Of a stretch of DNA of 64,000 bases, positions 5,372 through 26,800 are shown in pieces. The notes beneath the pieces were generated by a model. It saw nothing but the letters and a program-made list of their open reading frames with translations. It had not been told where the DNA came from and did no database searches. Numbering within the stretch: position 1 is the stretch's first letter; each line of letters begins with the position of its first letter. Source of the stretch: Akkermansia muciniphila (GTDB lineage: Bacteria; Verrucomicrobiota; Verrucomicrobiia; Verrucomicrobiales; Akkermansiaceae); contig NZ_JABDHQ010000006.1 in the NCBI RefSeq assembly GCF_018709685.1, positions 62,001 to 126,000 on the forward strand. The letters run 5' to 3'. A program made the position numbers and the translations under genes.

Positions 5372-7111
5372 ATGACACCGGGCTTTCATTGGACTCTCCG
5401 CCCCTCCGTGAGGGAGGATGATCCGGTCTTGAAAGCGTTTCCCGCAGAACTGCCCTTGCTGGTCAAGCAGCTCCTGCTGCAGCGCGGATTTACCGGAGGT
5501 GCGGAAACGGACCTCTTTCTGGAGCCCAGGCTTTCCCACCTGAGCGACCCCTTCCTGATGGGGGAAATGAGAGCCGCCGTGGACCGCATTTTCCAGGCTG
5601 TTGATGAAGGGGAAACCGTGTGCATTTACGGGGACTATGATGTGGACGGGGTCACCTCCGTGGCGCTCCTGCGGGCCATTCTGATGTCCTATGACTTGGA
5701 CCCGCAGTACTTTATCCCCGTCCGCTCCCGGGAAGGCTACGGGCTCAGTGAAGCGGGCATAGAGCGCTGCCTCTGCGAATGCGCGGAAAAACCCAGCCTG
5801 CTCATTACCGTGGACTGCGGCACCTCCTCCGTAAAGGAAGTGGACATGCTCAACGGCCTGGGAATAGACGTCATCATTCTGGACCACCATGAGGCGGGGC
5901 CGCTGGGCCGGCCGGACGCGGTGGCGGTGGTCAATGCCAAAATTGAGGAGGACAGCCCGTACACCTACCTGTGCAGCGCGGGAGTGGTCTTCAAGCTGGC
6001 CCATGCCCTGCTGAAGGAGCGGAAGCTGAAAACCTTTGACCTGAAACTTTATCTGGACCTGGTAGCCGTGGCTACCGTGGCGGACATCGTCCCGCTGGTG
6101 GATGAAAACAGGATTCTGGTGCGCCACGGCCTGGGAAGGCTGGCGCACAGCCGCCATACGGGCCTGAAAACCTTGACGGAAATAGCGGGCATCCGCCCTT
6201 CAGACTCCGCCAACCACGCGGGCTTCCTGAACGCTGCGCATGTGGGCTTCAGGATAGGTCCCCGCATCAATGCTGCCGGGCGCATGGACTCCCCCATGGA
6301 CGCCCTGGAACTTCTCCTGACCATGGACAACAGGCGCGCCGTGCAGCTCGCCCAGATGCTGGACTCCCACAACCGCAAGCGGCAGGAGGAAGAGGAAGCC
6401 ATCCGGACGGATGCGGTGGAAATGCTTCACAACTCCTTTGACCCGGAGCGGGACAACGTCATCGTGCTCGGTTCCCGCGCGTGGCATCCCGGCGTGGTGG
6501 GCATCGTGGCCTCCCAGCTCATGAGGCGGTACCACAAGCCCACCTTCGTCATCGCCTTTGATGAAAGCGGCGTGGGGAAGGGCTCGGGCCGCTCCATCCC
6601 CGGCGTATCCCTGGTGCAGGCCATCCACCACTGTGCGGATACGCTGGTTTCCGGCGGCGGCCATGACATGGCCGCGGGCCTGGTGATTGAGGAATCCCGC
6701 ATGGACGACTTCCGCAAGGCCTTCAACCGTTACGTCTCTGAAACCACCACGGAGGAACAGCGCAGCCCCGTGCTCAACATTGACATGGAAGTCTCCTTCC
6801 AGGCGCTGACGCTGGACCTGCTGGACAGCTATGAAAAGCTGGAGCCCTTCGGCAACTCCAATCCCCAGCCCCTCTTCATGAGTTCCGACGTTTTCCCCAC
6901 GGAACCGCCCAAGCGCGTGGGAACCAACCATTTGAAGCTCTTCATGCGGCAGGGCATGGTGGAGCGTGACGCCATCTTCTTCAACGGAGCGGAGCGGGAA
7001 CTCCCCAATCCCCCCTGGGACATCGCCTTTACGATTGACCGCAATGTGTACCGCGGCCGCGCCTCCCTGTCCATCTCCATTCAGGAAATACGTTCCCACC
7101 GGGAAATGTAG
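5372..7111 (+). CDS. recJ: single-stranded-DNA-specific 5'-3' exonuclease RecJ
   Basis: RecJ degrades single-stranded DNA 5' to 3' in RecFOR recombination, mismatch and base-excision repair; it is cytoplasmic and metal dependent. The 579-residue length is usual. The DHH domain shows DYDVDG (88-93) and DHH (171-173) for metal binding, and the DHHA1 part shows GKGSGRSIPG and the GGGHDMAAG loop; a C-terminal OB-like RecJ domain follows (EKLEPFGNSNPQPLF). The GGGHDMAAG loop has Asp where Ala is common, a mild variant. ATG at 5372 is chosen because it opens the frame at the expected N-terminus and follows a promoter-like sequence directly. It stands alone between the GH84 gene and the leucine leader. 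Confidence 0.95.
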   Translation: MTPGFHWTLRPSVREDDPVLKAFPAELPLLVKQLLLQRGFTGGAETDLFLEPRLSHLSDPFLMGEMRAAVDRIFQAVDEGETVCIYGDYDVDGVTSVALLRAILMSYDLDPQYFIPVRSREGYGLSEAGIERCLCECAEKPSLLITVDCGTSSVKEVDMLNGLGIDVIILDHHEAGPLGRPDAVAVVNAKIEEDSPYTYLCSAGVVFKLAHALLKERKLKTFDLKLYLDLVAVATVADIVPLVDENRILVRHGLGRLAHSRHTGLKTLTEIAGIRPSDSANHAGFLNAAHVGFRIGPRINAAGRMDSPMDALELLLTMDNRRAVQLAQMLDSHNRKRQEEEEAIRTDAVEMLHNSFDPERDNVIVLGSRAWHPGVVGIVASQLMRRYHKPTFVIAFDESGVGKGSGRSIPGVSLVQAIHHCADTLVSGGGHDMAAGLVIEESRMDDFRKAFNRYVSETTTEEQRSPVLNIDMEVSFQALTLDLLDSYEKLEPFGNSNPQPLFMSSDVFPTEPPKRVGTNHLKLFMRQGMVERDAIFFNGAERELPNPPWDIAFTIDRNVYRGRASLSISIQEIRSHREM

Positions 7112-7177
7112 TTTCTCCACAAGGGGAGGTGAGCGTGCACGGTTCTTCTCCGGAAAAGGTCATACATCCCGCCGTCC

Positions 7178-7195
7178 TTGACAAAACCGTGTCAA
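7178..7195 (+). promoter_or_regulatory. TTGACA/TGTCAA inverted repeat upstream of the leuA leader
   Basis: TTGACA (7178-7183) and TGTCAA (7190-7195) form a perfect 6-bp inverted repeat 61 bases before the leader-peptide ATG. The left half doubles as a consensus -35 element but the -10 position (about 7201-7206, CATCGT) is poor. It could be the leu promoter, an operator overlapping it, or chance. Confidence 0.25.
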
Positions 7196-7255
7196 AAATG
7201 CATCGTCTGCCTTGTTCCCCCCATTCAGGGCGGAGTTATGGTAAAAATAAGCAAG

Positions 7256-7306
7256 ATGAACACCCTGTTCCTTCAAGGTCGTCTATTGCTACTTCTCGGA
7301 CGGTAG
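7256..7306 (+). CDS. leucine-rich leader peptide of leuA
   Basis: A 16-codon frame encodes MNTLFLQGRLLLLLGR and stops at TAG 7304-7306. It holds seven Leu, five of them in one run (7283-7297: CTA TTG CTA CTT CTC), including rarely used CTA and TTG codons. An in-frame ATG at 7238 would add six residues (MVKISK) and sits just after CGGAG, so the true start may be there. Leu-codon runs in a short frame upstream of leuA are the hallmark of ribosome-mediated attenuation in leu operons of other bacteria. Here the frame lies about 150 bases before the leuA ATG and is followed by mutually exclusive hairpins. Function is inference from position and composition. Confidence 0.72.
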   Translation: MNTLFLQGRLLLLLGR

Positions 7307-7327
7307 TCCGTGAAGATATCTTGATAT

Positions 7328-7367
7328 GCGCCGGTGAGCCGTTCCGGCGCGAGGGAAGTAAACGGCT
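7328..7367 (+). promoter_or_regulatory. mutually exclusive hairpins of a putative leucine attenuator
   Basis: Hairpin A pairs GCGCCGG (7328-7334) with CCGGCGC (7344-7350); hairpin B pairs AGCCGTT (7337-7343) with AACGGCT (7361-7367). The 5' arm of B is the loop of A, so both cannot form together. A near-exact direct repeat, TCTTGATATGCGCC (7319-7332) and TCTTGATTTGCGCC (7370-7383), brackets them and offers a further pairing of GCGCC 7379-7383 with GGCGC 7346-7350. I see no clean stem with a U-run before the leuA ATG; TTTTT at 7448-7452 is preceded only by a weak TTCC-GAA-GGAA stem (7424-7434). The switch could therefore act on transcription or on translation initiation. Confidence 0.5.
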
Positions 7368-7458
7368 GGTCTTGATTTGCGCCAAAGGAAGGATTCCGGA
7401 ACAGGAACGTTTCCGTGCGCAGTTTCCGAAGGAACGAACCCTTAACATTTTTACTATA

Positions 7459-8619
7459 ATGAAAGAACACATACATATTTTTGATACGACGCTGAGAGAC
7501 GGGGAACAGTGCCCCGGCGCGGCGATGACCGTGGAGCAGAAAATACAGGTTGCCATGCAACTGGAAGCTCTGGGAGTGGACGTAATTGAGGCGGGCTTTC
7601 CCGTCATCTCGGACGGCGACTTCCGCGCTGTCCGCACTGTGGCGGAACGCACGAAAAAAAGCCGCGTCTGCGGGCTGGCCCGCTGCGTGGAGAAAGACAT
7701 CATTGCCGCCCATGAAGCGTTGAAGGTCGCCGGAGACCGGGAGCGCATCCATCTGGTGGTGGCCACCTCCCCCATCCACCGGAAATACAAGCTGGAAAAA
7801 AGCCGCGGGCAAATCAGGGAGATGGCCACTAGGGCTGTCGCCATGGCCTCCGGATTATGCGGGGAAGTGCAGTTTTCCGCGGAGGATGCTTCCCGGACGG
7901 AGCCGGAATTCCTGGCGGAGATTGTGGAAGCTGTGATTGATGCGGGAGCCGCCGTCGTCAACATTCCGGATACGGTGGGGTACACGATGCCGGAGGAATA
8001 CTACCGCCTGATTTCCTACCTGAAATCCAACGTCCCCAACGTGAGCCGCGCCAGGCTTTCCGTCCACTGCCATGACGACATGGGAATGGCCGTAGCCAAT
8101 TCATTGGCAGCCGTCCGTGCCGGGGCGCAACAGGTGGAGGGCACCATCAACGGCATCGGTGAACGGGCGGGCAACACGGCCCTGGAGGAAGTCATCATGG
8201 CGCTGCATTCCCGGTCGGACTTCTTTTCCGGCGTGCAGACCGGAGTGCGGACGAAGGAACTGGTGCGGACCAGCCGCATGGTGGCCGCCATGAGCGGCCT
8301 GTCCGTCTCGCGCTCCAAGGCCGTGGTGGGGGCGAACGCCTTTGCCCACGGTTCCGGCATTCACCAGGACGGCGTTTTGAAAAACCGGAGCACTTATGAA
8401 GTCATGGACCCGGAGGAAATCGGCTGGGGAGCTACGGAACTGCCCCTGACCAAGCATTCCGGCAGGCACGCCGTAAAGATGCGTCTGAATGCACTAGGCT
8501 TTTCCGTTCCGGATACGGACATGCCGCGCCTGTTTGAGTTGTTCAAACAGCGTGGAGACCAGTGCAAGTTCGTGTATGACGACGACTTGTCCGCCATGGT
8601 GCACGCCATTCATGCGTAA
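7459..8619 (+). CDS. leuA: 2-isopropylmalate synthase, short form without regulatory domain
   Basis: Condenses acetyl-CoA with 2-oxoisovalerate, the first committed step of leucine synthesis. From ATG 7459 the protein has 386 residues: a DRE-TIM barrel with TTLRDGEQCPG (10-20), the metal-binding HCHDD (203-207), GERAGNTALEE (234-244) and GSGIHQDG (298-305). It stops shortly after the barrel and accessory helices, so the C-terminal LeuA allosteric dimer domain (PF08502) of the roughly 500-residue enzymes is absent. The frame stays open upstream to 7129, but that part overlaps the leader peptide in another frame and is not protein-like, so ATG 7459 (MKEHIHIFDTTLRDG) is chosen; it has no Shine-Dalgarno. 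A homocitrate or citramalate synthase is possible but less likely given the leucine leader. Confidence 0.9.
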   Translation: MKEHIHIFDTTLRDGEQCPGAAMTVEQKIQVAMQLEALGVDVIEAGFPVISDGDFRAVRTVAERTKKSRVCGLARCVEKDIIAAHEALKVAGDRERIHLVVATSPIHRKYKLEKSRGQIREMATRAVAMASGLCGEVQFSAEDASRTEPEFLAEIVEAVIDAGAAVVNIPDTVGYTMPEEYYRLISYLKSNVPNVSRARLSVHCHDDMGMAVANSLAAVRAGAQQVEGTINGIGERAGNTALEEVIMALHSRSDFFSGVQTGVRTKELVRTSRMVAAMSGLSVSRSKAVVGANAFAHGSGIHQDGVLKNRSTYEVMDPEEIGWGATELPLTKHSGRHAVKMRLNALGFSVPDTDMPRLFELFKQRGDQCKFVYDDDLSAMVHAIHA

Positions 8620-8625
8620 TCTTCC

Positions 8626-8666
8626 CCTCCCGGGAATTCTATGGGAATTCCCGGGAGGTTTGTTTT
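8626..8666 (+). terminator. strong rho-independent terminator after leuA
   Basis: CCTCCCGGGAATTC (8626-8639) pairs perfectly with GAATTCCCGGGAGG (8645-8658) around a 5-base loop and is followed by a T-rich tail. Confidence 0.85.
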
Positions 8667-9060: not shown

Positions 9061-9088
9061 TCCTTACCAGTATTTTAGAAAAGCGGCA

Positions 9089-10132
9089 ATGAAGGTAAAG
9101 ATCGGGTTCATGGAAGGCGCCGAGGAATGGCAGATCAAGGTGTTTTTATACCGTTTCAGGAACATTGATCCCTCCATCCTTGAGTTTGACATTGATAAAG
9201 ACAATGCGGATTTCCTTATCGCCTTTCCGTGGCTGTATAAATCCACCAGGGAGGTATTTCTTCAGTTTTTGCAGGACTCGGCAGGAAGAATTACGATCAT
9301 GGATGTATTGGGAGAAGCCGTTGCCCCCAATTTGAACTTGTTTGACTACCACATCGGGTTCGATCCTTCCGGCCTGGACGGCCGCGTGCTGGAAGCTCCC
9401 TATCTTTTTTCGTACCGCGCTTCGCTGGACTGTATGTCTCCGGATCATTTAGCCGATGCCCTGGACGGGAAAAGCGGATTCTGCAATTATATTTATTCCC
9501 ATGGGGAAGGGCATCCGTACCGCATCCAGTTGTTCTCCCATCTTTCCGCCTACAAGAAAGTCAATGCCATAGGAAAACATTTAAATAATACGCCCTGTGA
9601 CCTTCCCAGGGAAGCCGATGATTGGATGAAAGGAAGCGTGTTGCTGAAAACCCCTTATAAATTTTCCATCGCTTGTGAGAATGCCTGGTACAGGGGCTAC
9701 TCCACGGAAAAAATCATCACGAGTTTCCAGGCCCGCTCCATTCCTCTCTACTGGGGCAATCCATTGATTGAGGAGGAATATAATCCCAAGGCGTTTATTA
9801 ATTGCCACCGTTTTTCCTCCCTGGATGAAGTAGTGGCGGAGATCAGGAGAATTGACGAGGATGACGACCTGTGGCGTTCCATGGTGGAGGAGCCCAAGCG
9901 CCTGCCCTGGCAGATTGAGCGCGCGCAGGAAAAGGAAGATAACCTGACCGCGGCGCTGTTGGAAATCTTTGCTTCCCCCGTGGAGCAGGCGAGGAGAAGG
10001 GGAGACGGGCTGTGGCTGGATCATTACAGGAATTTTTTCATCCATCATTTGAGCAGCCGCAGAAAAACTCCCCGGGAAAAGCTGGAGGCGAAGTTGAAAA
10101 AGTGGAGTAAAAAACTCTTCCGTCATTCTTAA
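9089..10132 (+). CDS. GT10 family alpha-1,3/4-fucosyltransferase
   Basis: Transfers fucose from GDP-fucose to GlcNAc (or glucose) of glycan acceptors. The 347-residue protein shows the GT10 donor-binding signature: KFSIACENA (191-199), GYSTEKI (203-209) and IPLYWGNP (218-225), followed by NPKAFINCHRF. The C-terminus is basic (RRKTPREKLEAKLKKWSKK), which in Helicobacter FucT serves for membrane association. No signal peptide. Start at ATG 9089 rather than GTG 9026 because a TATAAT box lies between them. The gene stands alone, and its composition is less G+C-rich than its neighbours, which hints at transfer. The product may decorate surface glycan with Lewis-like fucosylation; that is inference, and the exact linkage cannot be read from sequence. 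Confidence 0.85.
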   Translation: MKVKIGFMEGAEEWQIKVFLYRFRNIDPSILEFDIDKDNADFLIAFPWLYKSTREVFLQFLQDSAGRITIMDVLGEAVAPNLNLFDYHIGFDPSGLDGRVLEAPYLFSYRASLDCMSPDHLADALDGKSGFCNYIYSHGEGHPYRIQLFSHLSAYKKVNAIGKHLNNTPCDLPREADDWMKGSVLLKTPYKFSIACENAWYRGYSTEKIITSFQARSIPLYWGNPLIEEEYNPKAFINCHRFSSLDEVVAEIRRIDEDDDLWRSMVEEPKRLPWQIERAQEKEDNLTAALLEIFASPVEQARRRGDGLWLDHYRNFFIHHLSSRRKTPREKLEAKLKKWSKKLFRHS

Positions 10133-11858: not shown

Positions 11859-14800
11859 ATGAAATTGAGATTGCCGCTTTTTCTTGCCTCATTGCTGCTG
11901 GCCGCCATGGCCGCGGCTTCCCGTGCCGATGAATTCACCTGGTCCTCCACTTCCTCCAGCGCTTCCTGGCAGGAGGCTTCCAACTGGAATCCCGCTGAAG
12001 CGCCGGGCCTGAATTACGCCCGGTATGATACCGTTGTTTTCAACAACACGCTTTTGTCCGCCGCTACCACCATCACGTTGAGCGGCAGCGTTTACCTGAA
12101 CCAGCTGGTCAGCACGGCAGACGACCAGAAGACGCTGACGCTGACGGGGAGCGGGGCGAGAATTTACTTCGGCAAGGAAAATCCCGGCATGTCCCTGAAC
12201 GGCAATATGACGCTGAACCTGAACGTTCCCATTTCCACCGACCAGGATTTCACCATCATCTCCAAACGCTCCAACGTCATTTTCAACGGCACGTATTCCA
12301 ACCTTTACCATAATCTGAACGTGGATGCGGACGCCGGCACCCGCGTGGAAATGCGCAAAGAGGCCACGTATATCAATACGCTGACCAAAGACGGCGCAGG
12401 CACTCTCGCGCTGGCTGCGGACAACCGCTATATTGACCAGGTCCATGTCCGGGAAGGCTCCCTTCATCTGGGAAGCGACAAGTCCCTGGGCGGGGCCGTG
12501 TTGATTCTGGGCGACGAAGGTCTCCGCAACCAGGTCGTTTCCCTGCAGGCGCTTACGAAAGACCTGGTCCTGACCAACGATTTTTCCTGGCTGAACACCA
12601 ATTTGAATATCACCGGGCAGCATGCCATTACGCTGGCGCCCCGCAACCAGGTGACCATTGATTTGAACGGCGACAGGAGCATTGATACCGAGCTGAATAC
12701 CAGCCTCATATTCGGCAGCACCGTAGCCACGGCCGGAACGGGCGGATTCACCAAGTCCGGGTTGGGACGTTTTGAAATTCAGGGGACCAGCCATGCGTTC
12801 GGTTCCTTTTCCGTCCGGGACGGCGTCGCGGCCGTTACCGCCAGGGGGGCGGATTATGTGCTGGGCGGTCCTGCGGAGAACGGGGAAGCCCTGCCGCTGG
12901 GAACCGGAACCCTTTCCATCATTGGAGAGAATAGCAGGCTGGAACTTTCACCGGATACCGGGCGTGACGTGTATGTCAGGGGAAGAATCAGCCTGGACCG
13001 CGGCGGCGTTTTTGAGCTGATGAACCGCGCCTCCGTGCACCTGGAAGAAGGCGCGGAACTGGACGGCGGAACTGACGGAACCACTCCCACCCTGTTCATC
13101 CTGCGGGGAGACGTGCATATTGACGAGGGGATTGCCTCCCATCTTCCCAACGTCCAGTTCGGTTCCTCCGCCACCCTGTACGGTTCCGGCCTGCAAGGCT
13201 CGTTTGGCGAGCTGACGTTCGGCTTTCAAGAGCTTTCCGGAGACTCCGTCACGCTGGATTCTTCCCTGGGCGGCCTGTTTGCCGCGAAAGCCTCCGTTTC
13301 CGACCATTCCACATTGATGCTGGGCGCGGATGGACAGCTGGGGGGAGAACCGTCCCTTTCCCTGGGGAAAACCTCCACACTGGACACGCGGGGATTTTCC
13401 GCTTCCTTTTCCGATTTGTCCTGGACTTCCAGCACCGTCTGGGCGGACAGGTCCACCATCGTGCTGAGCAACGGAACGGGTTCGGGCGGCGGCATTCTGC
13501 ACTTTACCGGCAACAGCCTTTCCGGAGGCGCCGGACACCTGGCGCTGGAAGGCTGGCAGGACGGGCACGACCAGCTTCTTTTCAACCATGACGTCAGCGG
13601 GGAATCCTGGTTTTCCCGGGTCCACTTCCTGGGCTACAACGATGAAATGGGGCTTGAGGTTGCCGCGCGGGGAGATGCGTATGAACTGCGCCCCGCCTCC
13701 GTGAATACGGGGGGAGTTTATACGTGGACCGGCCAGGCCTACCTGGGGGAAGGCATCAGCAAGTCCACCAATACGAATGCCCTTTTCGGCGGGAACTGGG
13801 ACGCCAACCGCGCGCCTGCCGGAGCGGGGGCGGAGATGGTGTTTGCCAATCTTGATCCCCATTTGCGGGGCAAGGGAATTAAGCTGAACTCCCCGTCGGG
13901 ACAGTTCGTAGTCGGCAAGATGACCATTGCGGACGACGTGGCCGGGTCCTTTTCCCTCAGCGGGAACGACGTTCTGTTTTTTGACAACAACGGGAGCCAG
14001 GCGGAACTGTACGTGGGAACTCAAAACAATACTTACAGCATTTCCAACAACATCCTGATCGGGGAAAACGGCCTGAAGTTCATTGGCAAGAACGGCAAAA
14101 TGCAGCTATTCGGCGCCCTGCAGGGGGACGGAGACCTGGTGATCACAGGGGAATCCGGCATTTTGGAAATCCGGAAGAAGGGTAACACGGAATACCGCGG
14201 GAACGTCATTCTGGAGTCCGGAACCCTGATGCTGACGGATAACGGCGTGCTGGGCACCGGTTCCCTGATCATCAAGGGCGGAGCGCTGGGCCGCAACGGC
14301 AATTCCGCGGAACTCCGCAACCAGCTTGTCATCCAGAATGATTTTCGTCTTGCCCAGGGGATGGTAGCGTTCACCGCTTCCGGTAACTCCGTCAAGGATG
14401 TGATCCATCTCGACCGCGTGTTTACCATTTCAGGCGCCGGCAGCCTGTATTTCCGGGAAGGCCGCGACCTTCAGGGCGCAGGGGGACTGGTGCTGGGGCC
14501 GCCCACGGGAGGAGTGGTGAGCATTTACAATTTTTCCGGTAACAACAGTTTCAGCGGCGGCCTGACCCTGAACGGCAATACGCTGTACGCGGCGGACGCC
14601 ACTGGCACGGACGGCGAGGGATTGAATTACATGGTGTTCGGGGAACGTGAGCAGAATGCCAATTACGCCGGCACGGGCGACATCACCTTTGCGGGCAGCG
14701 GCAATTTTTACATCCGGGGCGGTGAACAGACAATCGTGGATTTCCGGAACGGCGTCAACATTTCCGGAAACGGCGGCACCCTGTGGCTGCAAGGGAAGTC

Positions 14801-17800
14801 GCAGGAAGTCCGGCTGACCGACGTCAATTTCGGAGGCTCCGTGACCATCAATTCCTACGGCAGGCAGGTCTTGAAGATAGGGCAGGTTGACTTTCTCAAC
14901 AGCGGGTCCTCCTCCCTGATCCTGAGCATGGACCGCCATGATTCGGGTTCCGTGGAAGGGGACGTCTCCGTCCGTTCCCTGAACGGAGGCGAAGCCAGTT
15001 TGGACGGTCTTTTAAGGTTGATGATCAACGGTACAGGGTACACCTCCACGTTGGAGGAAACGATCAGCCATGTCAGTGCCTCCAATGTAAGGCTTTCCAG
15101 CGGACGGCTCGCCCTGACGCGGGACAACCAGATTCAGGGCCTCCGTGCTGGGGAATACGCCACTCTGGATTTGTACGGGGGCTCCATCATCAGCTCCCAG
15201 GGAGTCAGCAATACGTTCGGCACGCTGACCATCAACGGCGCCGCGACCATGGAGCTGGGTTCAGGCGGGGAATTGACCTTCAGCAAAGTCAGCAACTGGG
15301 GAACCAACGGCGGACTGCCCTACCTGGTCAATATAGAAAACGCTTCCGGCACCTGGAATACGCCGGGCAGTCCGGACGTTTCATCGGAACATGTCTGGTT
15401 TTTGACGGCAAACGCCCTGACGGCGGACCAGCTCAACCAGGTGGCTTTTACCGGGTACACCCGCGGGGCGGAGCTTTATTACCATGAAGACTTGAAGAAA
15501 TGGGAATTGCTTCCGAACGGGGACGCCGCTTTTGAATGGACCGGAGGCGGGGGGGCGGACAGCCGGTCCTGGTCGCTCACCGCCAACTGGTTCGGCGGCA
15601 AGGTGCCGGCCACCCGCGGCAACATCGCCATTTTCCGTGACCAGGATGCGGGCCTGGACCAGAAGACGATTTTGCTGACGGAGGATATCACTCTTTCCCA
15701 GATTAATTTTGAAGGCGCCAAATCCACCAGTTTTTGCATTGATTCCTCTTCCGACGGTCAACGGGGGGTGCTGACGTGGGAAGGCCAGGGGGACGCTCCC
15801 GCCAAGATTTTCATGGCCGGAGCCATGTCTCCCGACATCCGGGCTGACATGGTCATCTCCCTCGGCGGCCTGCTGGTCAGCCACAGCGCCTACAACCAGA
15901 CGCTTGTGTTGAGCGGCCGCATCGGCAACGCGGCCGACGGCTCTTCCGGCGCCTTGATTTTGGAGGGAAGCGCTTCCAAGGGAACCTTGAACACCATCAG
16001 CCTCCAGGGGGACAATACGTTTACCGGAGGCGTCATCCAGAGGGGCGGAAGGCTGGAGATCACGCATGACCATGCGCTGGGGGCGGGGGCCTATACCGTG
16101 GACGGAGAAGGCCGCTTCGGAGGCAAGGACCTCACCGGCTATACCATCCGGACGGTAGGAAACGACCTCCATCTGAAAGCCACGAACGGCGATGACGGCA
16201 AGTCCTGGATTCTCATCGGCAACATCACGTTCAACGATGCCGACGCTTCCGATGTGGACGGCTTTCTGTACGGCCCGCTCCAGACGGTTTCCACCGATTC
16301 CGGCGCCACGCTGACCTTCGGGGAGAATTACACGGTTGCGGACGCGGACGGGGATGTCCCCTCCATGCTGGAGTTCAAAACCACGTCCACTACCTCCCTT
16401 ACGGGTGTTTTCCTGGGGCAGAACACTTTTTCCGGCGGCATTACTGCGACGGGAGGCGGGACAGTCACGCTCAAGGTAGGCTCCAGCAGCATCCTGAATG
16501 ATCCGGCGCATCCGGAAGCGGGCATCAAGTCCGGCCCCCTGGGGACGGGAACCATCTTTTTGGGCAACGGGCGGTACCACAGCCTGGGCGTTTATTCGCC
16601 TGAAACCAATACCGCCGTCCATTACGTCCTTCACAACAATATTGAACTGGGGACCTCGGAAGAGTTGAGATTCATGGGCGGAAAGGGTTCCCTGACGCTG
16701 GATTCCGCCAACTCCCTGGATTTCGGTTCCACGGACAGGCTCCTGTACACGGGGCAGTATTACGCCGGAGGCCAGTACCCCACCATGCTGGTCGTCAATT
16801 CCCGCGTGGACGCTTCCCAGGCGGCCGTCGCGGTGCGGGGAACCGAATTCGTCCGCTTCTCCAATCCGGACAACGTGTTCAAGGAATTTAACATCGGAGT
16901 AAAGGACTACGATTACAACAACCTGGAGGGGCGCGTGTCCGTCGGCGCCGACAACGTGCTCGGGGACCAGGCCATAGGAGTTTACGCGTGGACCAGCGCC
17001 ACGGCGGCTTCACAGTCCTACCTTCAGGCTTACTCGGGGGAAGCGGGCCGGTCGGTGCGTACGCTCGGCAACCTGTTCCGTTTCCATGCAGGGCTGATCT
17101 TCTCCTCCCTGGTAGAGGAAGGAGGCGTTGCCGGAGCAGAACAGCCGGGAGGAGTAATCACTCTGAACCTGAACGGCGCGGGAGCCTCCGACCTGAACGC
17201 CGGGCTTTCCTACAACCAGCGGAAATTCACGGTCAACAGTGCGGAGACCGCCTGGAACAGCAAGATTTACAACAGCGTGATCGTTTCCTTCGCGGAGACG
17301 CACGACCTGACCAACGGCGGCATTCTGGCGGACGGCAATTCCACCAATTACAAGGCATGGCTGGCCGGCCAGGGAGGAGAGCTGGAGCTGCTGGGCACCA
17401 AGACTTTTTCCGGTGATACGGATGACGGCCATGGCAGCCGCTTCCTCGGCACGGGCTATGATCCGGACAGCAGCCATTACGCGCTGGTCATCGGCAATTA
17501 CGGCCTGGTCACTACCACGCTGGGTGACAAGGATATGGTCATCGGCGCCATGGCGGACGGCAGCCGCGTCACCCCCTTCGGCCAGGGGGAAATCCTGCTG
17601 GACGGCCTCAACGGGCTTCTGCTGGTGCGCACGGGCGCCCAGAAGAAGAACGTCTATCTGGAAGACGGCCTTTTTGAAATGGCGCGCGGCACGTTTGAAG
17701 TCACCGGCGGCGGCAGCCTCCTGCTGGGCCGCAAGGGGGACGGAACGGCTTTTGACCAGACCCTGGCAGGCAGGAACGGACAAGCCGGGCAGGGCATGAT

Positions 17801-20800
17801 TTCCGCAAGCGGCGGCAGCCGGATCGTCGTCGACGCCGGAGACAGGAGCGTTACACTCAGGGCCTACATGGGCGGAGACGTCACCCTGCTTTCAGGCACG
17901 CTGAACCTGGCTCTGGAAAAGGCGCTGGGTTCCGTAACGGACATGACGTTCAACGGCGGGACGCTGGCCTTGAACAGGATGAGCCAGTCCCTGGGAACGG
18001 GGAGCACCCTGTCTCTGGGCAGTTCCTCCATGTCCACGCTGGACTTCGGCGGCACGGCCGCCTCCGGCAACGTGGTGATGGAGGCGGGGCGCCTGGGCGC
18101 CTGGGATGAAAACGGCACCCTTGTCATCAAAGGCTGGAAGGGCAACATCGCCGGCGGCGGGAGAAGCCAGCTGCTGCTGGCCGGCTACGGCGCGGACAGC
18201 CCCAAGTACATCGGCAACATTTCCTTTGAAGGGTACAGCACCGGGGCCCGGATTGTCTGGGTGGACGGGCATTACGAGATTCTGCCGTACGCCGCCACGT
18301 ACGTTTGGACGGGCGCGCGGGGCAGTTCCTGGGACGACCAGGGGGACTGGAAGGACGGCCAGGTGCCGAACATCATCAACGCTTCCGTCACGTTCGGCAA
18401 TGAAGCGCTTGATTCCAGCACCGTCGCCGTGCTGACGGCGGACCGGACCGTGGGCGACCTGAAATTCAGCGGCACGCGGAACCAGCAGTTTGAAATCAGG
18501 GGCGCCGCAGGCGGCATCACTCTGGTGCTGGCCCAGACGCCGGAATCCGGATTTGACGCCGGGATTGAAATGACGGGCAATTCAGACGCCCTTATTTCCA
18601 CGAATGTCCGCCTGGACAGCCATTTGAAGATTTCCAACGAAGAGGGGGCGGACCTGGAGATCAACGGGACCGTTTTCCACGACAGTGATTCCACCTACAG
18701 GATCAGCAAGAACGGAGCCGGCGTCCTGACACTGAGCGGCAACAGCACCTTCAGCGGGGGATTCCTCCTGAATGAGGGTACGCTGCGGATCAACCAGGAC
18801 GAACGCCTGACCAACCAGAGCGTTTCTTCCGGAGCCGTAGGCACGGGCGTTCTGACGCTCCGCGGCGGCGCGCTGGAAGCTTGGCGGCAGGACCGGACGC
18901 TCAGCAATGAAATCGCCATGAGCGGAAACGTCGCCATCGAGGGCTCCCATTCGCTTTTGCTGGACCACCGCGGCGGCCATTCCAGCCGCATTGACGGAGA
19001 CGTGGTGATCACGGTAGCTTCTTCAGCCTCGCTCATCATCGGCGACGGCCATCATTTCTCCTGTGACGGCAATATAACTAAGGGAGGGTTGGGACTCCTG
19101 GAATGGCGTAGCACACTGGACAATACGCTGTCCCGGGGAGTCCGCCTGAACAGCGGGACCTTGGTGCTGTCGGCAGACAACAACTACTCCGGGGGAACGG
19201 AAATGGCAGGAGGAATACTGGCCATTTCCCGGAATTCCTCCCTGGGTAATGCCGACAGCGCCATTGAGGTCCTGGGGGATTCCACCCTACGGATTGACCG
19301 CAGCCTGACCGGAGTGCTGAACAATTTTTCCCTGTCCGCCGGAACGGCATTGACCGTCCAGACGGCGGACGGCGGTTCTTCCGCCACGGATGCCGTGCTG
19401 GCCGGCGTCATGTCCGGAGAGGGCAGGCTGGTCAAGACCGGAGGAGGCTCCCTGATCCTGACCGGACGGAACAGCTTTACCGGAGGGGCGGAAGTGAGGG
19501 AAGGCGTTCTGCAGCTGGGCAACGGCGGAACAGGGGCCGGTTTCGCGGCAGGCGCCAGCCTGGCGGAAGGAACGCAGTTCGTGTTCAATCACAGCGACCG
19601 CATGGATTATGCCGGAAGCGTCAGCGGGCAGGGAACCCTCGTCAAGCGGGGAACGGGCCGGCTTGTCCTGTCCGGGAGCAGCGCTTTTACGGGAGGGAGC
19701 ATCCTGGAAGAAGGAACGCTCACCGTGGCCCACGGCCAGGCCCTGGGAGACGGAGCCCTGGCGATGAATGACGGCACTGTTCTGGACTACGGCCAGGGCA
19801 TTGAGCTGGGGAATGACGTCTCCATCAACGGCAGCGGCCTGCTGAACGTGGATGAAGGAAAGGCGGCTGTCCAGCAGGGAATCATCAGCGGCGGAACTAT
19901 GGAAAAAACGGGAGAAGGCACGCTGGTTCTTACCGGAGAGAATACCTACCGCGGCGGCACTTCCGTCCGGGAAGGGACGCTTCAGGTGGGGAACGGAGGC
20001 CGGACCGGTTCCATCCTGTCCATGGCTGATCCCTCCCTTTCCCTCACCGTGGCTTCGGGAGCGGCCCTGGCCTTCAACCGCAGCGACGACATCCATTACC
20101 AGGGAACGGCGGCAGGGGAAGGCAGCCTTGTCCAGCGGGGAACCGGAACATTGCTGGTGACTGTCGCGCAGGAATATACCGGCGGCAGCGTCGTGGAAAA
20201 CGGCACCCTTAAAATCACCGGAGAAGGGGCGCTGAACGGTTCCGTCCGCATCCACGGAGGCGCCATGTTCTACATCGGCAGCCAGGACGCCCCCTATACT
20301 CTGGCGAACGACATCCTGGGAGAAGGCACGCTGGTCATCGACCTTTCGGAAGACCGCCTCCCGGAAGATGGCAGTCCGCTGCAATTCTCCTTCGGCAGTC
20401 GTGCCGCAGACCTGGGAAAAGGATTCACCGGAACCGTGGAAATGCGGAGTACGGCCTATGTGGTTGACGAACAAATGGAATGGTTCATGAATGGGGACAG
20501 CGTCTCCCATCTGAAGACGGCTGCCGGGAGCGTGGGGTCCCTTCAGGCCGTAGCCCAGGCAGACCCGGCCCTGCGCGCCAGAACGCTGGAGGGAACCGTG
20601 AATTTTGCCGGAGGGGAAATGAACTGGACCCTGGATGCGGACAACGAAGCGTCCGCCTGGCTGCAGGCCGGCTCCATCACCCTGACGGGGAATACGGATT
20701 TTAACCTGAATCTCAGCGAACATGCCGTTTACGACGGAGGGAGGCTGTCCTTCTTTGACGGACCGGGCACCGTACTGCTTGCCGAAAGCGGAACTGCCGT

Positions 20801-23800
20801 CAGCGGAGCCGGGTTGTGGTCCCTGTCCGGCGTGCGCCTGGGCGGGAAAACCCAGGCGGATCTCCAGGCGGTACGGCAGGGAATCGTGCAGGGCGGCGCG
20901 GAAGTCGCCCGCGGCGTCACTGCATGGTCGGCGGGAACGGAGGACGGAACGCGCCTGGTGGCCTACCGGGAACTTTCCCGGGTGGAAATTTATGATGGAC
21001 GCACCCTGTCGGTTGTGCTGGATGCGGACGACTCTTCGCGTGAACTGAGCGTTGCGTTGACGGATTATACCCTGGAATCCCTGCTGGCGGACGGGAATGA
21101 CCCCGCCGGGGCGGACAGGGCGGGGTCCGGCCATGTCAGTTTCAAGGATGCCGCCGGAGGCCGCGGCATCCTGCTGAGCGGGACCAACAGCTATACGGGA
21201 ACGACGACGATCGAGGCCGGAACCAGGCTGGTTCTGGGCGGCGATTCCGCCCTGGGCGGCGCCGGACGCCACACTTCCCTGCTCATCGCGGATTCCGCGA
21301 ATGCCGTGCTTGACCTGAACGGCCATGCGGCTTACACGGGAGGCGTCAGCATCGGCCACGGGGGCGGCATTTTCCTGGGAACTGCAAACGGCGGGGAAGG
21401 CGCTCTGACCATCGGCACGAATGCAGATGACGGCACGCCGTCCGTTGCCGGGGGCGGCAGCATCGCCGGGAACGGCGCGCTTGCCGGAGCCGGGACGCTT
21501 CACCTGAACCTGGGCACGCTGACCATTTCCGGGGTCAATGACTCCGTGCAGGCGGAGACGGCGGTAGGCCGGGATGCCACCCTCCTGCTGACCCATGCAA
21601 ATGCCCTGGGCAAGGGAGATTCCGCCGGCGCCATTGCCGTGGAAGGGCTGCTGCAAGTCAATGCGGCCGGAACCCTGGACAACGTGGTGGCCGGGTCCGC
21701 TGCCGGAACGTGGGAAAAGCTGGGAACGGGAAGGCTCGTCTCGGAACGTGACCACACGTTCGCGGGAACCGTTTCCGTTGCGGACGGAACGCTGGCGCTG
21801 CTGGGCGGCAACTATTTCTTCCGGCAGGTCAACCTGCATGACGGGGCCGTTCTGGAGCTGGGGCAGGACGCCTCCGCCGGGAACGCCCTGATCAACATGG
21901 AAGGTCGTTCCGGGACCATCCGCGCGTTGAACGACCTCCAGTGGTCCAACGCCATTTCCCTGGGACGGGAGCGGGGCGTTCTGGACACGAACGGCCGCAC
22001 CGTTACGGCGGGCGGAACCATCAGCGGCCAGGGACTTCTGGCCGTCACCGGAGGAGGCACGCTGAACATCCGCCGGGAAAATACGTATGCGGGCGGTACC
22101 GTGATCACGGGTAGCGGGGCATTGCGCCGCGCTTCCGGCACCAGAGTGGTGCTTGGGGAGGGCGGGGAGCGAGGCCTGGGCGCCGGACTAGTGACCCTGG
22201 CGGGCGGAAGCCTGCTGGAACTGGCCTTCTCCGACAAGACCTTTTTCAACCGCCTGGCCGGAACCGCTGCGGAAACGGTCCTGGTCAGCGGCCGCGGGGT
22301 AACGCTGGACGCGGACAACAGCGCGTTTGCGGGCACTTGGGAAATTACGGGCGGGGCCCTCGCCGCCGGCACGCTCCGGGACGCGGCTTCTCCGGACCAT
22401 GTTCTCAACAATCTCGGCACGGGCAGTTCCATTTTCCTGAACGGAGGGGAGCTGACCCTTTCCGGAACGAATGCGGAAGACGCGGACCTGCTGTTTGCCA
22501 ACAAGCTGTCCGGCAACGGCATTCTTCATGCCGTGCTGGGCACGCAGGAGAGCCGGTTCTTCTTTGATGCGGACCGTGCGCCGGCGGCGGGGAATTCCTT
22601 TACGGGAACACTGGACATGAAGAACGGGACATACGTCTTTTCCACGGCGGACGCTTCCGGCCGGGGAGTCCTTCAGCACGGAACGCTGGAACTTTCCGCC
22701 TCCGGTTCGGGCCGGGGCTCCACCGTCATCGACGGTGATTACAGGATAGGCGGGTTGACCATGAACGGAGGCGTTCTGAAGGTGGGCACGGACGCCAAGG
22801 GCGCCCCCGCAGGCATGCTGACCGTGGACGACCTGAATGTGGACGGCGGCGGAATGGTCGCCATGCGCATTCCCCAGTCCATCCATATCACGGACGCCAA
22901 AGGCACCCTCTTTGACGACAACCACGACGCAGAGGCCTACCAGCATCAGGTGGTGCGGGCCGAAGGCACGGCCTTGCCCGTCCACGGCGCCCAGCTTTCC
23001 TTCACCAATGAGGACGGCACCGTCACCGGGAATCCGGGCATCAGGCAATACGTGCAGCTGACCGACTCCGGCAGCCGGGAAGTGGCCGAAGCCGTGTATG
23101 ACTACATCATGACGGTGAAGACGGACGCCGCCCCGAATTCCGGAGAAAACGGCATCTATCTGGGCTACGGCCTGAGCCGCATCAATTCCTACACGGCCGG
23201 CACGCTCTACCAGCTTGCCAACACCGCGGAAAGCAACAACGTGATGGGCGCCCAGCTCACCAGCACCGCCAAGGGAGAGGAAGCCGGAGCCCCCTCCGTG
23301 GGGGGAGGCTTTGAATTCCACGCCTTTGACGATGGGGAGCACGGCATCATCATCGCCAACGCCGCCAACAACTACACGGGCAAAACCCTGGTGAGCAGCG
23401 GAAAAGTCACCTACGGCGCCGACAACGCCTTCGGCAACACCAGTGAGCTGGAACTGGCCGCCGGAACGAAGGTGGACATGAACGGCAAGACCCAGACCGG
23501 GGACAGCCACTTCATCGGCGGCCTGACCATGACCGGAGCCGGGGCGGAACTCCTGATGAACGGGGGGCAGCTGGAAGTGCGCGGCTCCGCCGCCCTCTCC
23601 GGCAGTACGGTGGACCTGGGAAATGCTTCCGGCAGGCTCGTTCTCACGGGAGCCGCCGCGCTGGACAATGACGCCCTGATGAATCTTCAAGGCGGTCAGG
23701 CCGCGCTGGGCGGAACGGCGGCCATGGACCACGGCAGCAGCATTCTGCTGGAAGGAGGCGCTCTGACCGTCTCTGGAAAAATGACTGTCGCCAACGGAAG

Positions 23801-26800
23801 TTTCCTGCACCTGGGCGGAACGGCCGGAGGCTCCCTCACCCTGCTGGGCGGAGGTTCCCTGGAAGGGGAGAATGCGCTGGCGGGCCGGGGAAGCATCACC
23901 CTGGGCGGCGACGGAACGACGACGGTTGTCCGCGGAGCCAACGGCCAGTTGAATGCCGCCGTGGACATTCAGGCGGGAAACGCCGCCCGGCTGACGGACT
24001 TCAAGGGACTGGGAACAGGCGCGATCCGGCTGGACGGGGAACTGTCCATCACGGGTGCCGCCTCCGGCGACCTGTCCAATACGGTCACCTTCGGTTCCGA
24101 GCCCGGCGGCGTCCTGGACCTGGTCAACAGCCGTGGCGCGCAGAGCGGAACGCTGCAAGGGGAAAGCGCGGCCATTCGTCTGACGAATTCGGAATGGACG
24201 CTGGCCGGAAACAACTCCCGGCTGGGGGCCGGTTCTTCTTTCACGATTGACGCGTCCTCCCGCCTCACGGCTGCCGGCTCCGGTACGCTGGGACAGGCCG
24301 CCGTAAGCATCGGCGGCGTTCTGGAACTGGACGCCTCGGAAGGCACGGAATGGAACCTTTCCAACCGGTTGTCAGACGATGGAACGGACGCCGGGGAACT
24401 CGTCAAGAAGGGAGAAGGAACGGTGGTCCTGAATGCGGAAAACAGCCGCACGGGCTCTACTTCCATCGAAGCCGGAGAAATCAGGCTGGAACACGTGCTG
24501 GGGCTGGGAACCGGGCACATTGCCGTGGAAACGGCCTCCGGCGTCCTGACGCTGGGGGAAAAGGCCACGGGAGAATTCGTCAACCGGATTGCCAACGGCG
24601 GAACGGTAAACGTGTCGGGTTCTTCCCTCATTCTTTCCGGCGATATCAGCGGAACCGGCAGGGTGAATGTGCTCTCCGGAGCGGACGTGCTCCTTTCCGG
24701 GGACAATTCCGGATTTGACGGGGAAAACGGAGCCTTGTGGAACGTGGAGGCGGGAGCCGCCGTTTCCATCACCCGGGCGGCCAATCTGGGCGAGAGAGCG
24801 GACGTTCTGTTGAACGGAGCCCTGACCCTTCGCAGCGCCGTTCCGGCGGAAGGAAACGTTTATGTCTGGCGCAATGCGCTGGCGGGCTCCGGGAATTTGG
24901 TGGTCAACCTTTTCTCTGAAACAGAGGAATTCGCCTTCGGGGAATCCCATGCCGCCGATACGGGCCGGAACTTCACGGGCACCGTCACGCTGGGGACGGC
25001 CACGTTCAGGCTGGACGGACCGGGCAGCGGCAACGTGCAGGCCCTTGCCCAAGCCACGCTGGAACTGGCGGACGGCAGCCACACCGTCGTGGGGCGGGGG
25101 AGCGGGCAAAACGCCCTGGGTGGGCTGACCCTCCGCGGGGGCGAGCTTGACTTCTCCTGCGTTCAGCACACGGGGGCCCATCCGGGACTATCCGCGGACC
25201 ACGTTTCCCTGGTGGCTTCCAACGGCACGCTGACGGTGGCGGGCGGAACGGTAAAGGTGAATGCGGGCCTGCTGACCGGCATTGACACGACGGTGGACAC
25301 GACGGCCAACCTGCTGACGCATGAAGACCCCTCCATGGCCTTTGACCCGGACGGCAGGGAGCTGGCTCCCGTCAAGCTGGTGGAAACCGCTGCGGGACAG
25401 GCGCAGGGGGGCACCGCTTCCCTGGAAGTGGTGGACAGCGATTCCGGCGCCGTGATGCCGATGGACGCCACCGAACAGACGGTTTCCCTGCGGCATGGCG
25501 ACGAAGTCGTCGCGACGGGGCATTACAACTACGGCGTCAGCCTGGGCGCGGAGAGGGACGGCCTTTATGTGGGGTACATCCTGACGCAGGTGGACATCCG
25601 GGACGGCAAAACCCTGGTGCTGGACAATGAAGACGCCACCGGCGCGGCGGCGGACCTCTCCGCGCACCTTGCCGGAACCGGCCATTTGACCATTCACGCG
25701 TCCGGAAACATTAACAAGGTGATCTCCCTTTCCCACAGCGGCAATACCTTCACCGGCATCACCACCGTCACGGACGGAACCACGCTGCGGGCGGAGACCG
25801 CCACGGACCACATCATCGGGGAAAGCAGGCAGCTTGTCCTGGGCAGCGGATCGACGTTCGACATGAACGGCACCAACCAGAACGTCAACAGCCTGACGGG
25901 AGCGGGGCAGGTGCTCTTCAACGGAGAAGGCACCCTCCGTCTCCGCAATGCGGCGGATGCGGACAGCACCTACCGCGGGGATATGCTGGGGACCGGAACC
26001 ATGGTGAAAACGGGCGCCGGGGAACTGACCCTCCAGGGCGGCCGCATCCTGCACGAGCAGGGGACTACGGTGGAAGAAGGCGTGCTGACCATGAACGGCG
26101 CTTCCGCCCATGCCAACAAGCCGCTCGTCACGATCAAGGGGGATTCCCGCGTCAACATGGACGGCGGCAACATCGGCAGCAGCGGAGACACCCTTTTTGC
26201 TGCGGAGGATGCCACTGGAGAACTCCATGTCCGGAACATGGCCGGCTACACGGTGGGCCGTGACGGCCAGCGCCTGCTGGACGCCAGGGGCAGCGGCTCC
26301 TTGAACGCCGTGTTCAGCAACGTGAAGGACGTGCGGGGCGACGTGCATGCCGCCCCGGAATCCGCGGTGAGCATGCGCCTGGCGGACGGCACCACCCTGA
26401 CGGGCATGATTGACCCGGCCTCCCTGGCCGTGGACGGCACCAGCACCTGGAACATGACGGCTGATTCCACCCTGACGAACCTGCGGAACAGCGGCGTCAT
26501 CGACTTCATGGACAGCGGCGCGGACGGCTTCAAGACGCTGACCGTTACCGGAAACATGGACAACGACGGCGACATTCCCGGCTCCTTCCGGATGAACGTC
26601 AGCCTGGCCGCCATGAAAACGGACATGATCAAGGTGGGCGGTTCCGTTTCCGGCTCCTACCACATCATCATCAAGCGCAATGCGCTGACCGACCTGACGG
26701 ACGCCCGGACCTTCTCCCTGAAGCTGGTGGACGTGGACGGAACGAACGCCGGGAACGCTGACGGAGAAACCTCCTTCCACGGGAGCACGGACGTGCGCAT

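Follow-up and report, generated by a model that had tools for sequence, protein, structure and literature searches.

Classical ribosome-mediated leu attenuators occur in Proteobacteria, and an attenuator of this kind requires an intrinsic terminator. According to the available part of a 2010 survey, leader-peptide systems were unknown outside Proteobacteria and Actinobacteria before the survey itself added Firmicutes (PMC2965389); the available part of its main text makes no mention of Verrucomicrobi-, Akkermansia, or leuA. An attenuator peptide of Staphylococcus aureus, a member of a different phylum, is likewise leucine-rich and represses branched-chain amino acid synthesis, as given in the accessible portion of its description (PMC5794164). 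The actinobacterial LEU element, the nearest analogue so far described, is again from another phylum; compared here by description rather than by a LEU element sequence, it resembles the Akkermansia leader in having a short ORF with a leucine run and a conserved pseudoknot before leuA, and no ordinary attenuator (PMC1262725). Seliverstov et al. (2005) regarded classical attenuation of that element as improbable and considered binding of a protein the probable mechanism; further, a Streptomyces leuA leader with mutated leucine codons is cited there as not acting like a classical attenuator (PMC1262725), which by analogy counts against simple attenuation in the case described below.

Here, we studied a leader in a 64-kb window (the whole stretch of Akkermansia muciniphila DNA that was analysed, 64,000 nucleotides), which the initial annotation had taken for a leucine attenuator. 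Like a classical leu attenuator, it has a Leu-rich leader peptide within the range of roughly 150–300 nt before leuA, and this part of the proposal stands. Unlike one, it lacks a strict intrinsic terminator and instead carries a conserved pseudoknot that begins 21 nt past the stop codon of the leader.

A leucine-run leader ORF upstream of leuA2

The features of the locus are as follows.

7178–7206, + strand: candidate promoter, TTGACA (7178–7183), 17 nt, CATCGT (7201–7206), the second hexamer being inferred
7236–7248, + strand: 5' strand UUAUGGUAAAAAU of a possible long-range helix with 7447–7459 at the leuA2 start, from the minimum-energy fold
7256–7306, + strand: leader peptide ORF MNTLFLQGRLLLLLGR, 16 aa, stop codon TAG at 7304–7306
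7283–7297, + strand: five consecutive Leu codons, CTA TTG CTA CTT CTC (codons 10–14), candidate control codons
7292–7315, + strand: hairpin P1, CUUCUCGGAC / GUCCGUGAAG, with Leu codons 13–14 plus GGAC in the 5' arm and the stop codon in and next to the loop
7328–7367, + strand: H-type pseudoknot, S1 7328–7334 with 7344–7350, S2 7337–7343 with 7361–7367, loops of 2 and 10 nt
7378–7421, + strand: hairpin P3 (UGCGC 7378–7382 / GCGCA 7417–7421), variable in sequence, pairing mostly retained
7459–8619, + strand: leuA2, a 386-aa 2-isopropylmalate synthase paralogue (NF002086; PF00682 and PF22617, no PF08502)
8626–8658, + strand: terminator-like hairpin after leuA2, of the ordinary type, 15 pairs with a T-rich tail

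Both the translation of the leader ORF and its codons, which had been placed about 150 bases before leuA, were confirmed, and the leuA2 start codon at 7459 lies 152 bases past the leader stop codon. The run of five leucines is the sole case among 821 short ORFs of the window (8–45 aa, both strands, each read from its first ATG, GTG, or TTG, which for the Leu-run frame is an upstream TTG at 7178), and an ORF with five Leu codons in a row arises in only one of 5000 dinucleotide shuffles of 7112–7458. Rare control codons suit a sensitive attenuator. Among the 744 Leu codons of five long ORFs in the window, CTA accounts for five (0.7%) and CTG for 475; the leader run, as it stands in the window, contains CTA twice and CTG not at all, and its third codon is CTG in L003, L004, L007, L008, and L010. 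Two observations at the start of the ORF count against the leader model: by eye, no Shine-Dalgarno sequence is evident at the leader ATG of the window, and in L003 this ATG is replaced by ATA, with an in-frame ATG 18 nt upstream. The motif CTTGACA of the candidate promoter is present in 11 of the 12 homologues, L012 being the one without it, and a consensus promoter scan called no promoter at 7178–7206.

Conservation of the leader with leuA2

An intact leuA2 was found in 12 of 76 genomes of the genus (protein 69–100% identical), with a broken copy in G005. The covariance model of the leader has a strong match (E 7e-21 or better) in 13 of the same 76 genomes, once in each, and the two distributions correspond one to one: 12 of the matches precede an intact leuA2 and the thirteenth precedes the broken gene. 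Three further genomes of the genus gave weak matches with E values of 0.04–0.66; the best two of these, in L046 and L047 (22 bits), in which most of P1 is missing, were judged to be chance. When the RNA model (R1) was run over an order-level sample of 288 genomes at E up to 0.05, it matched 13, all of them in the genus Akkermansia, and none outside; the leader model gave no match at E up to 1 in 52 loci taken from the surroundings of branched-chain genes and of other leuA genes. An exact-pattern scan of the genome contigs returned nine records, four of the Akkermansia type and five unrelated, and the latter, each within a frame open for at least 342 codons, were also judged to be chance.

A natural check on the initial annotation is whether the Leu run is kept before leuA in relatives, and it is: the broken copy and all 12 intact homologues have five or six consecutive leucines, and they also share the reading frame and the position of the stop. 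The stop codon itself is TAG in eleven sequences, TGA in L012, and TAA in G005, and L012 has one extra base in the loop of P1. Across the 11 close sequences, the leader ORF has seven variable sites, four synonymous and three non-synonymous, one of which is in the start codon. In ten close homologues, a 113-nt core is 93–100% identical to the window, and the corresponding values are 81–97% for the leuA2 coding sequence, 51–95% for the 110 nt before the leader, and 62–99% for the spacer after the pseudoknot. L012, the most distant homologue, is 71% identical to the window in the core, 66% in the coding sequence, 35% upstream, and 34% in the spacer; L010 has a single difference in the 113 positions of the core and a gene that is 82% identical. 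The leader before the broken leuA2 (L031, G005:C1:65800-68300) has a mismatch in pseudoknot stem S1, as if leader and gene were decaying jointly. This within-genus conservation is that of 12 intact sequences, 11 of them close to one another.

Short ORFs are common, as the 821 of the window illustrate, and the Leu-run frame might in principle be one of them, present by chance and without function. We consider this very improbable, since the leader is conserved beyond the level of the leuA2 gene itself and a leucine-specific pattern precedes leuA across the phylum (see below). The proposal of a leu leader peptide upstream of leuA draws strong support from the uniqueness of the Leu run, its conservation, and the covariance-model matches. 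The segment 7256–7306 is very likely a leucine-codon sensor, and it is in this sensing part of the leader model that we place high confidence.

leuA2 is a paralogue without the feedback domain

The gene after the leader had been called leuA. Its product is a 2-isopropylmalate synthase, scoring 583.7 bits against a cut-off of 532 with the NCBIfam equivalog model NF002086 and not reaching the thresholds of the remaining LeuA models shown; it is not the full-length LeuA. The catalytic and post-HMGL domains (PF00682 and PF22617) are present, and the C-terminal allosteric LeuA_dimer domain (PF08502) was absent in a domain search. A second gene of this genome, leuA1, at a distance of about 19 kb, encodes a protein of 518 aa that has PF08502. 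LeuA enzymes are inhibited by leucine through the domain that LeuA2 lacks, and, for want of PF08502, LeuA2 would escape this feedback inhibition, so that control at the RNA level would be useful for leuA2.

A tree of 41 sequences comprised nine of the 12 leuA2, 16 of the 40 leuA1 loci (two of them from one genome), and 16 sequences from outside the genus. In it, the nine leuA2 form one clade (100/99), the 16 Akkermansia leuA1 form a second (99/96), and these two group together (98/97), apart from the outside sequences. The tree is rooted at its midpoint, so it does not prove a leuA1/leuA2 duplication at the base of the genus, although this is the simplest interpretation. The frame of leuA2 is open back to 7129, and an N-terminal extension of the protein was considered and discarded, as it is not conserved (L003 has an open frame of 386 aa and L006 one of 393 aa).

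Upstream of leuA1, ilvB, an ilvB-like gene, and leuC of the same genome there is no leucine run, although a 17-aa frame rich in Leu, Ile, and Val was flagged 374 nt before the ilvB-like gene. Farther downstream of leuA2 in the window are a gene encoding a glycosyltransferase family 10 (fucosyltransferase) domain (9080–10132) and a single ORF of 5324 aa (11859–27833), which by eye has a repeat-rich look and an autotransporter-like end.

Structure of the leader RNA

The last Leu codons of the run pair locally in hairpin P1, nine of whose ten pairs are invariant; the tenth is U.U, and U-A in three of ten distinct sequences. Twelve bases past P1, and 21 nt past the leader stop codon, begins the pseudoknot, with two stems of 7 bp and zero bases between them. 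It is the sole exact 7+7 bp H-type pseudoknot on either strand of the 64-kb window within the limits of the scan (first loop 1–8, junction 0–1, last loop 6–14), and a scan for 6+5 bp pseudoknots outside leuA2 leaders gave isolated matches only, in L017, L019, L089, and L100. Over the ten distinct sequences, pairing holds in 97.1% of cells. Two S2 pairs change on both sides (in L009 and L012), a covariation score equalled in four of 500 column shuffles; S1 never varies, nor do nine of the ten P1 pairs, and there is accordingly no covariation evidence from these pairs. In P3, by the consensus fold, three pairs have substitutions in both partners, each in two sequences, with L012 gapped. A near-direct repeat consists of TCTTGATATGCGCC at 7319–7332, which extends into S1, and TCTTGATTTGCGCC at 7370–7383, close after the pseudoknot; it is kept only in part in L007, L009, and L012.

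Comparison of the window with the Rfam covariance models yielded only tRNAs elsewhere at gathering score and, for 7150–7520, a single match on the other strand with an E value of 9.9; a T-box, a riboswitch, or another known leader was ruled out in the absence of an Rfam match. The structure might also be a protein- or ligand-binding RNA in which the Leu run is incidental, and the near-invariance of linkers as well as helices in the close homologues is what such an RNA would lead one to expect. The linkers are not conserved in L012, which does keep the Leu run, the stop, and the pseudoknot, and the rare Leu codons together with the synonymous differences indicate translation; we therefore regard this explanation as improbable.

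The LEU element differs in a specific respect. There, the Leu run pairs with the Shine-Dalgarno box of leuA to form a base stem; in Akkermansia, the end of the run pairs within P1, and leuA2, unlike the leuA of the LEU element, has no evident Shine-Dalgarno box. A helix scan of the 12 homologues found no base stem joining the Leu run to a leuA2 Shine-Dalgarno box, the nearest candidate being GUUCCU with AGGAAY, which lies outside the Leu run and stops, on its 3' side, 23 nt short of the leuA2 ATG of the window. Because the base stem is not conserved, we file the Akkermansia leader as working like the LEU element and do not class it as a member.

How the leader may act on leuA2

Whether a classical output could follow the leader depends on a terminator, and a terminator scan found no terminator-like site on the + strand of 7100–7520. 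A stricter script flagged one of the 12 homologues (L007, at P1 with a weak tail). A looser one, which allows one mismatch and a loop of up to 18, found an extended S2 hairpin with the tail TTGATTTG in seven (L001–L006 and L011) and none in L007–L010 and L012. We therefore count no intrinsic terminator between the leader ORF and leuA2, with one weak candidate. A helix scan for a mutually exclusive antiterminator in the 12 homologues gave several competing short helices, none of them decisive.

These results bear directly on classical transcription attenuation, by which the extended S2 (GGTGAGCCGTT / AACGGCTGGTC) followed by TTGATTTG would be the terminator, S1 the antiterminator, and the pseudoknot only apparent. 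The S2 hairpin with its T-rich tail in seven of the 12 homologues speaks for such an arrangement, as do the apparent terminators that relatives have between leader and leuA. However, the hairpin has a loop of 17 nt, one mismatch, and a broken U tract; it was missed by the strict scans and, even by the loose rule, was not found in five homologues. Further, the complementarities of S1 and S2 lie on separate strands, and the two stems need not be mutually exclusive. We consider classical attenuation a minority possibility.

A different output would be translational attenuation, in which the leuA2 start region would be paired or free according to where the ribosome stands on the leader, through pairing of 7236–7248 with 7447–7459 or of GUUCCUUC (7267–7274) with GAAGGAAC (7428–7435). 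In the predicted fold, the long-range helix does extend to the leuA2 start codon, and masking of the leader start codon by a ribosome opens up the leuA2 start in several homologues (mean unpaired 0.42 to 0.61 in L001, the window); for the actinobacterial LEU element, too, pairing between the Leu codons and the ribosome-binding site of leuA has been proposed (PMC1262725). With a ribosome on the Leu codons, however, the predicted accessibility of the leuA2 start shifts by no more than 0.06 in 10 of the 12 homologues, in a folding model that does not include pseudoknots (under the same masking, access goes up by as much as 0.15 in L007 and down by as much as 0.11 in L012). So small an effect, with the pseudoknot outside the folding model, argues against simple sequestration by stalling. 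The helix 7236–7248/7447–7459 was itself set aside, as it shows no covariation, is weak in L007, and is not seen in L012. A translational output therefore seems unlikely to us, to about the same degree as classical attenuation. The confidences overlap, since both alternatives share the leucine-codon sensor with our preferred reading and differ from it in the output.

That reading, which we regard as likely, is that a leucine-codon-sensing leader controls leuA2, probably so that production of the leuA2 enzyme rises at low leucine. The 16-aa leader would be translated by a ribosome, which at low levels of charged leucyl-tRNA would stall in CTA TTG CTA CTT CTC, and P1 would stay open; when leucine is plentiful, it would get to the stop codon and depart, and P1 would close. 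The state of P1 would then pass to the adjoining pseudoknot, which would set the level of leuA2 expression, most likely through premature termination of transcription, which would be Rho-dependent or occur at the S2 hairpin, an imperfect helix with a U-rich tail. Taken as a whole, we favor a transcriptional output with some confidence over a translational one, which we hold to be possible at best.

Since LeuA2 is without the domain for leucine inhibition, regulation through the leader RNA would take the place of feedback inhibition of this enzyme; leuA1 of this genome retains the domain and is not preceded by a leader of this kind. One genome thus holds two paralogues, one with the leader and without the feedback domain and the other with the feedback domain and without the leader, and this contrast offers a clean test of how control of the enzyme by feedback and control through RNA can replace one another. 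We tentatively suggest, at somewhat less than even confidence, that a pseudoknot and not a terminator serves as the output of a leucine-codon-sensing leader here, and that this arrangement arose beside a leuA duplicate lacking the feedback domain, RNA control replacing allosteric control, independently of the actinobacterial LEU element. For a widely studied gut genus, the leader provides a compact and testable case of a variant that is poor in terminators and bears a pseudoknot.

leuA leaders elsewhere in the phylum

To place the Akkermansia leader in context, we considered 36 genomes outside the genus with leuA matches at E 1e-134 or better, of which 34 were used; genomes with weaker matches only (E about 1e-41 to 1e-56) were left out, as were G441, whose contig ends 162 nt upstream, and L115, in which the start motif was not found. 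A leucine-rich short ORF followed by an intrinsic terminator occurs in 22 of the 34 leuA upstream regions, in nine of 15 families, with MIRSGLLRRLLLLLLLEG, MIHQILNLRALLLLLLEGRSRVRV, and MNFNSNMLLGLLLLLREG as examples, and the remaining 12 regions fail this rule. The regions with both features are the following.

Upstream of leuA: L087, L089, L092–L096, L098–L100, L103, L104, L107–L114, L118, L119

By comparison, none of 170 randomised regions has both a Leu ORF and a terminator, with eight having the ORF alone and 25 the terminator alone; under the stricter rule, both features occur in four of 860 randomised sequences. Leucine is also, by a wide margin, the commonest enriched residue in the outside regions (23 regions), followed by arginine (seven). 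Within Akkermansia, the same rule holds for one of 34 leuA1 regions (duplicate upstream sequences being counted once, so that 34 of 40 loci were kept) and for seven of 12 leuA2 regions, the latter through the weak S2 hairpin.

The outside leaders are apparent classical leu attenuators, and their occurrence before leuA in other families counts in favor of reading the Akkermansia leader as a sensor. The initial annotation had also been unaware of any description of leu-gene attenuation in Verrucomicrobiota, the phylum to which Akkermansia does belong. Nothing contradicts this among the literature matches listed, which include no report of leader peptides in the phylum; the search was thin on subscription journals and is weak evidence of absence. 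The available part of an Akkermansia transcriptome paper mentions isopropylmalate dehydrogenase and not leuA (PMC8079684). The 22 of 34 regions nevertheless suggest that textbook leu attenuators are common in the phylum, and leader-peptide control of leucine synthesis would be extended to Verrucomicrobiota, with no earlier report among the matches listed. Upstream of leuA in L118 and L119, the leader-like ORF is rich in Ala, Ile, and Leu (AGALLAALILLLIQL) and is accompanied by a terminator; this leader perhaps senses more than one branched-chain amino acid.
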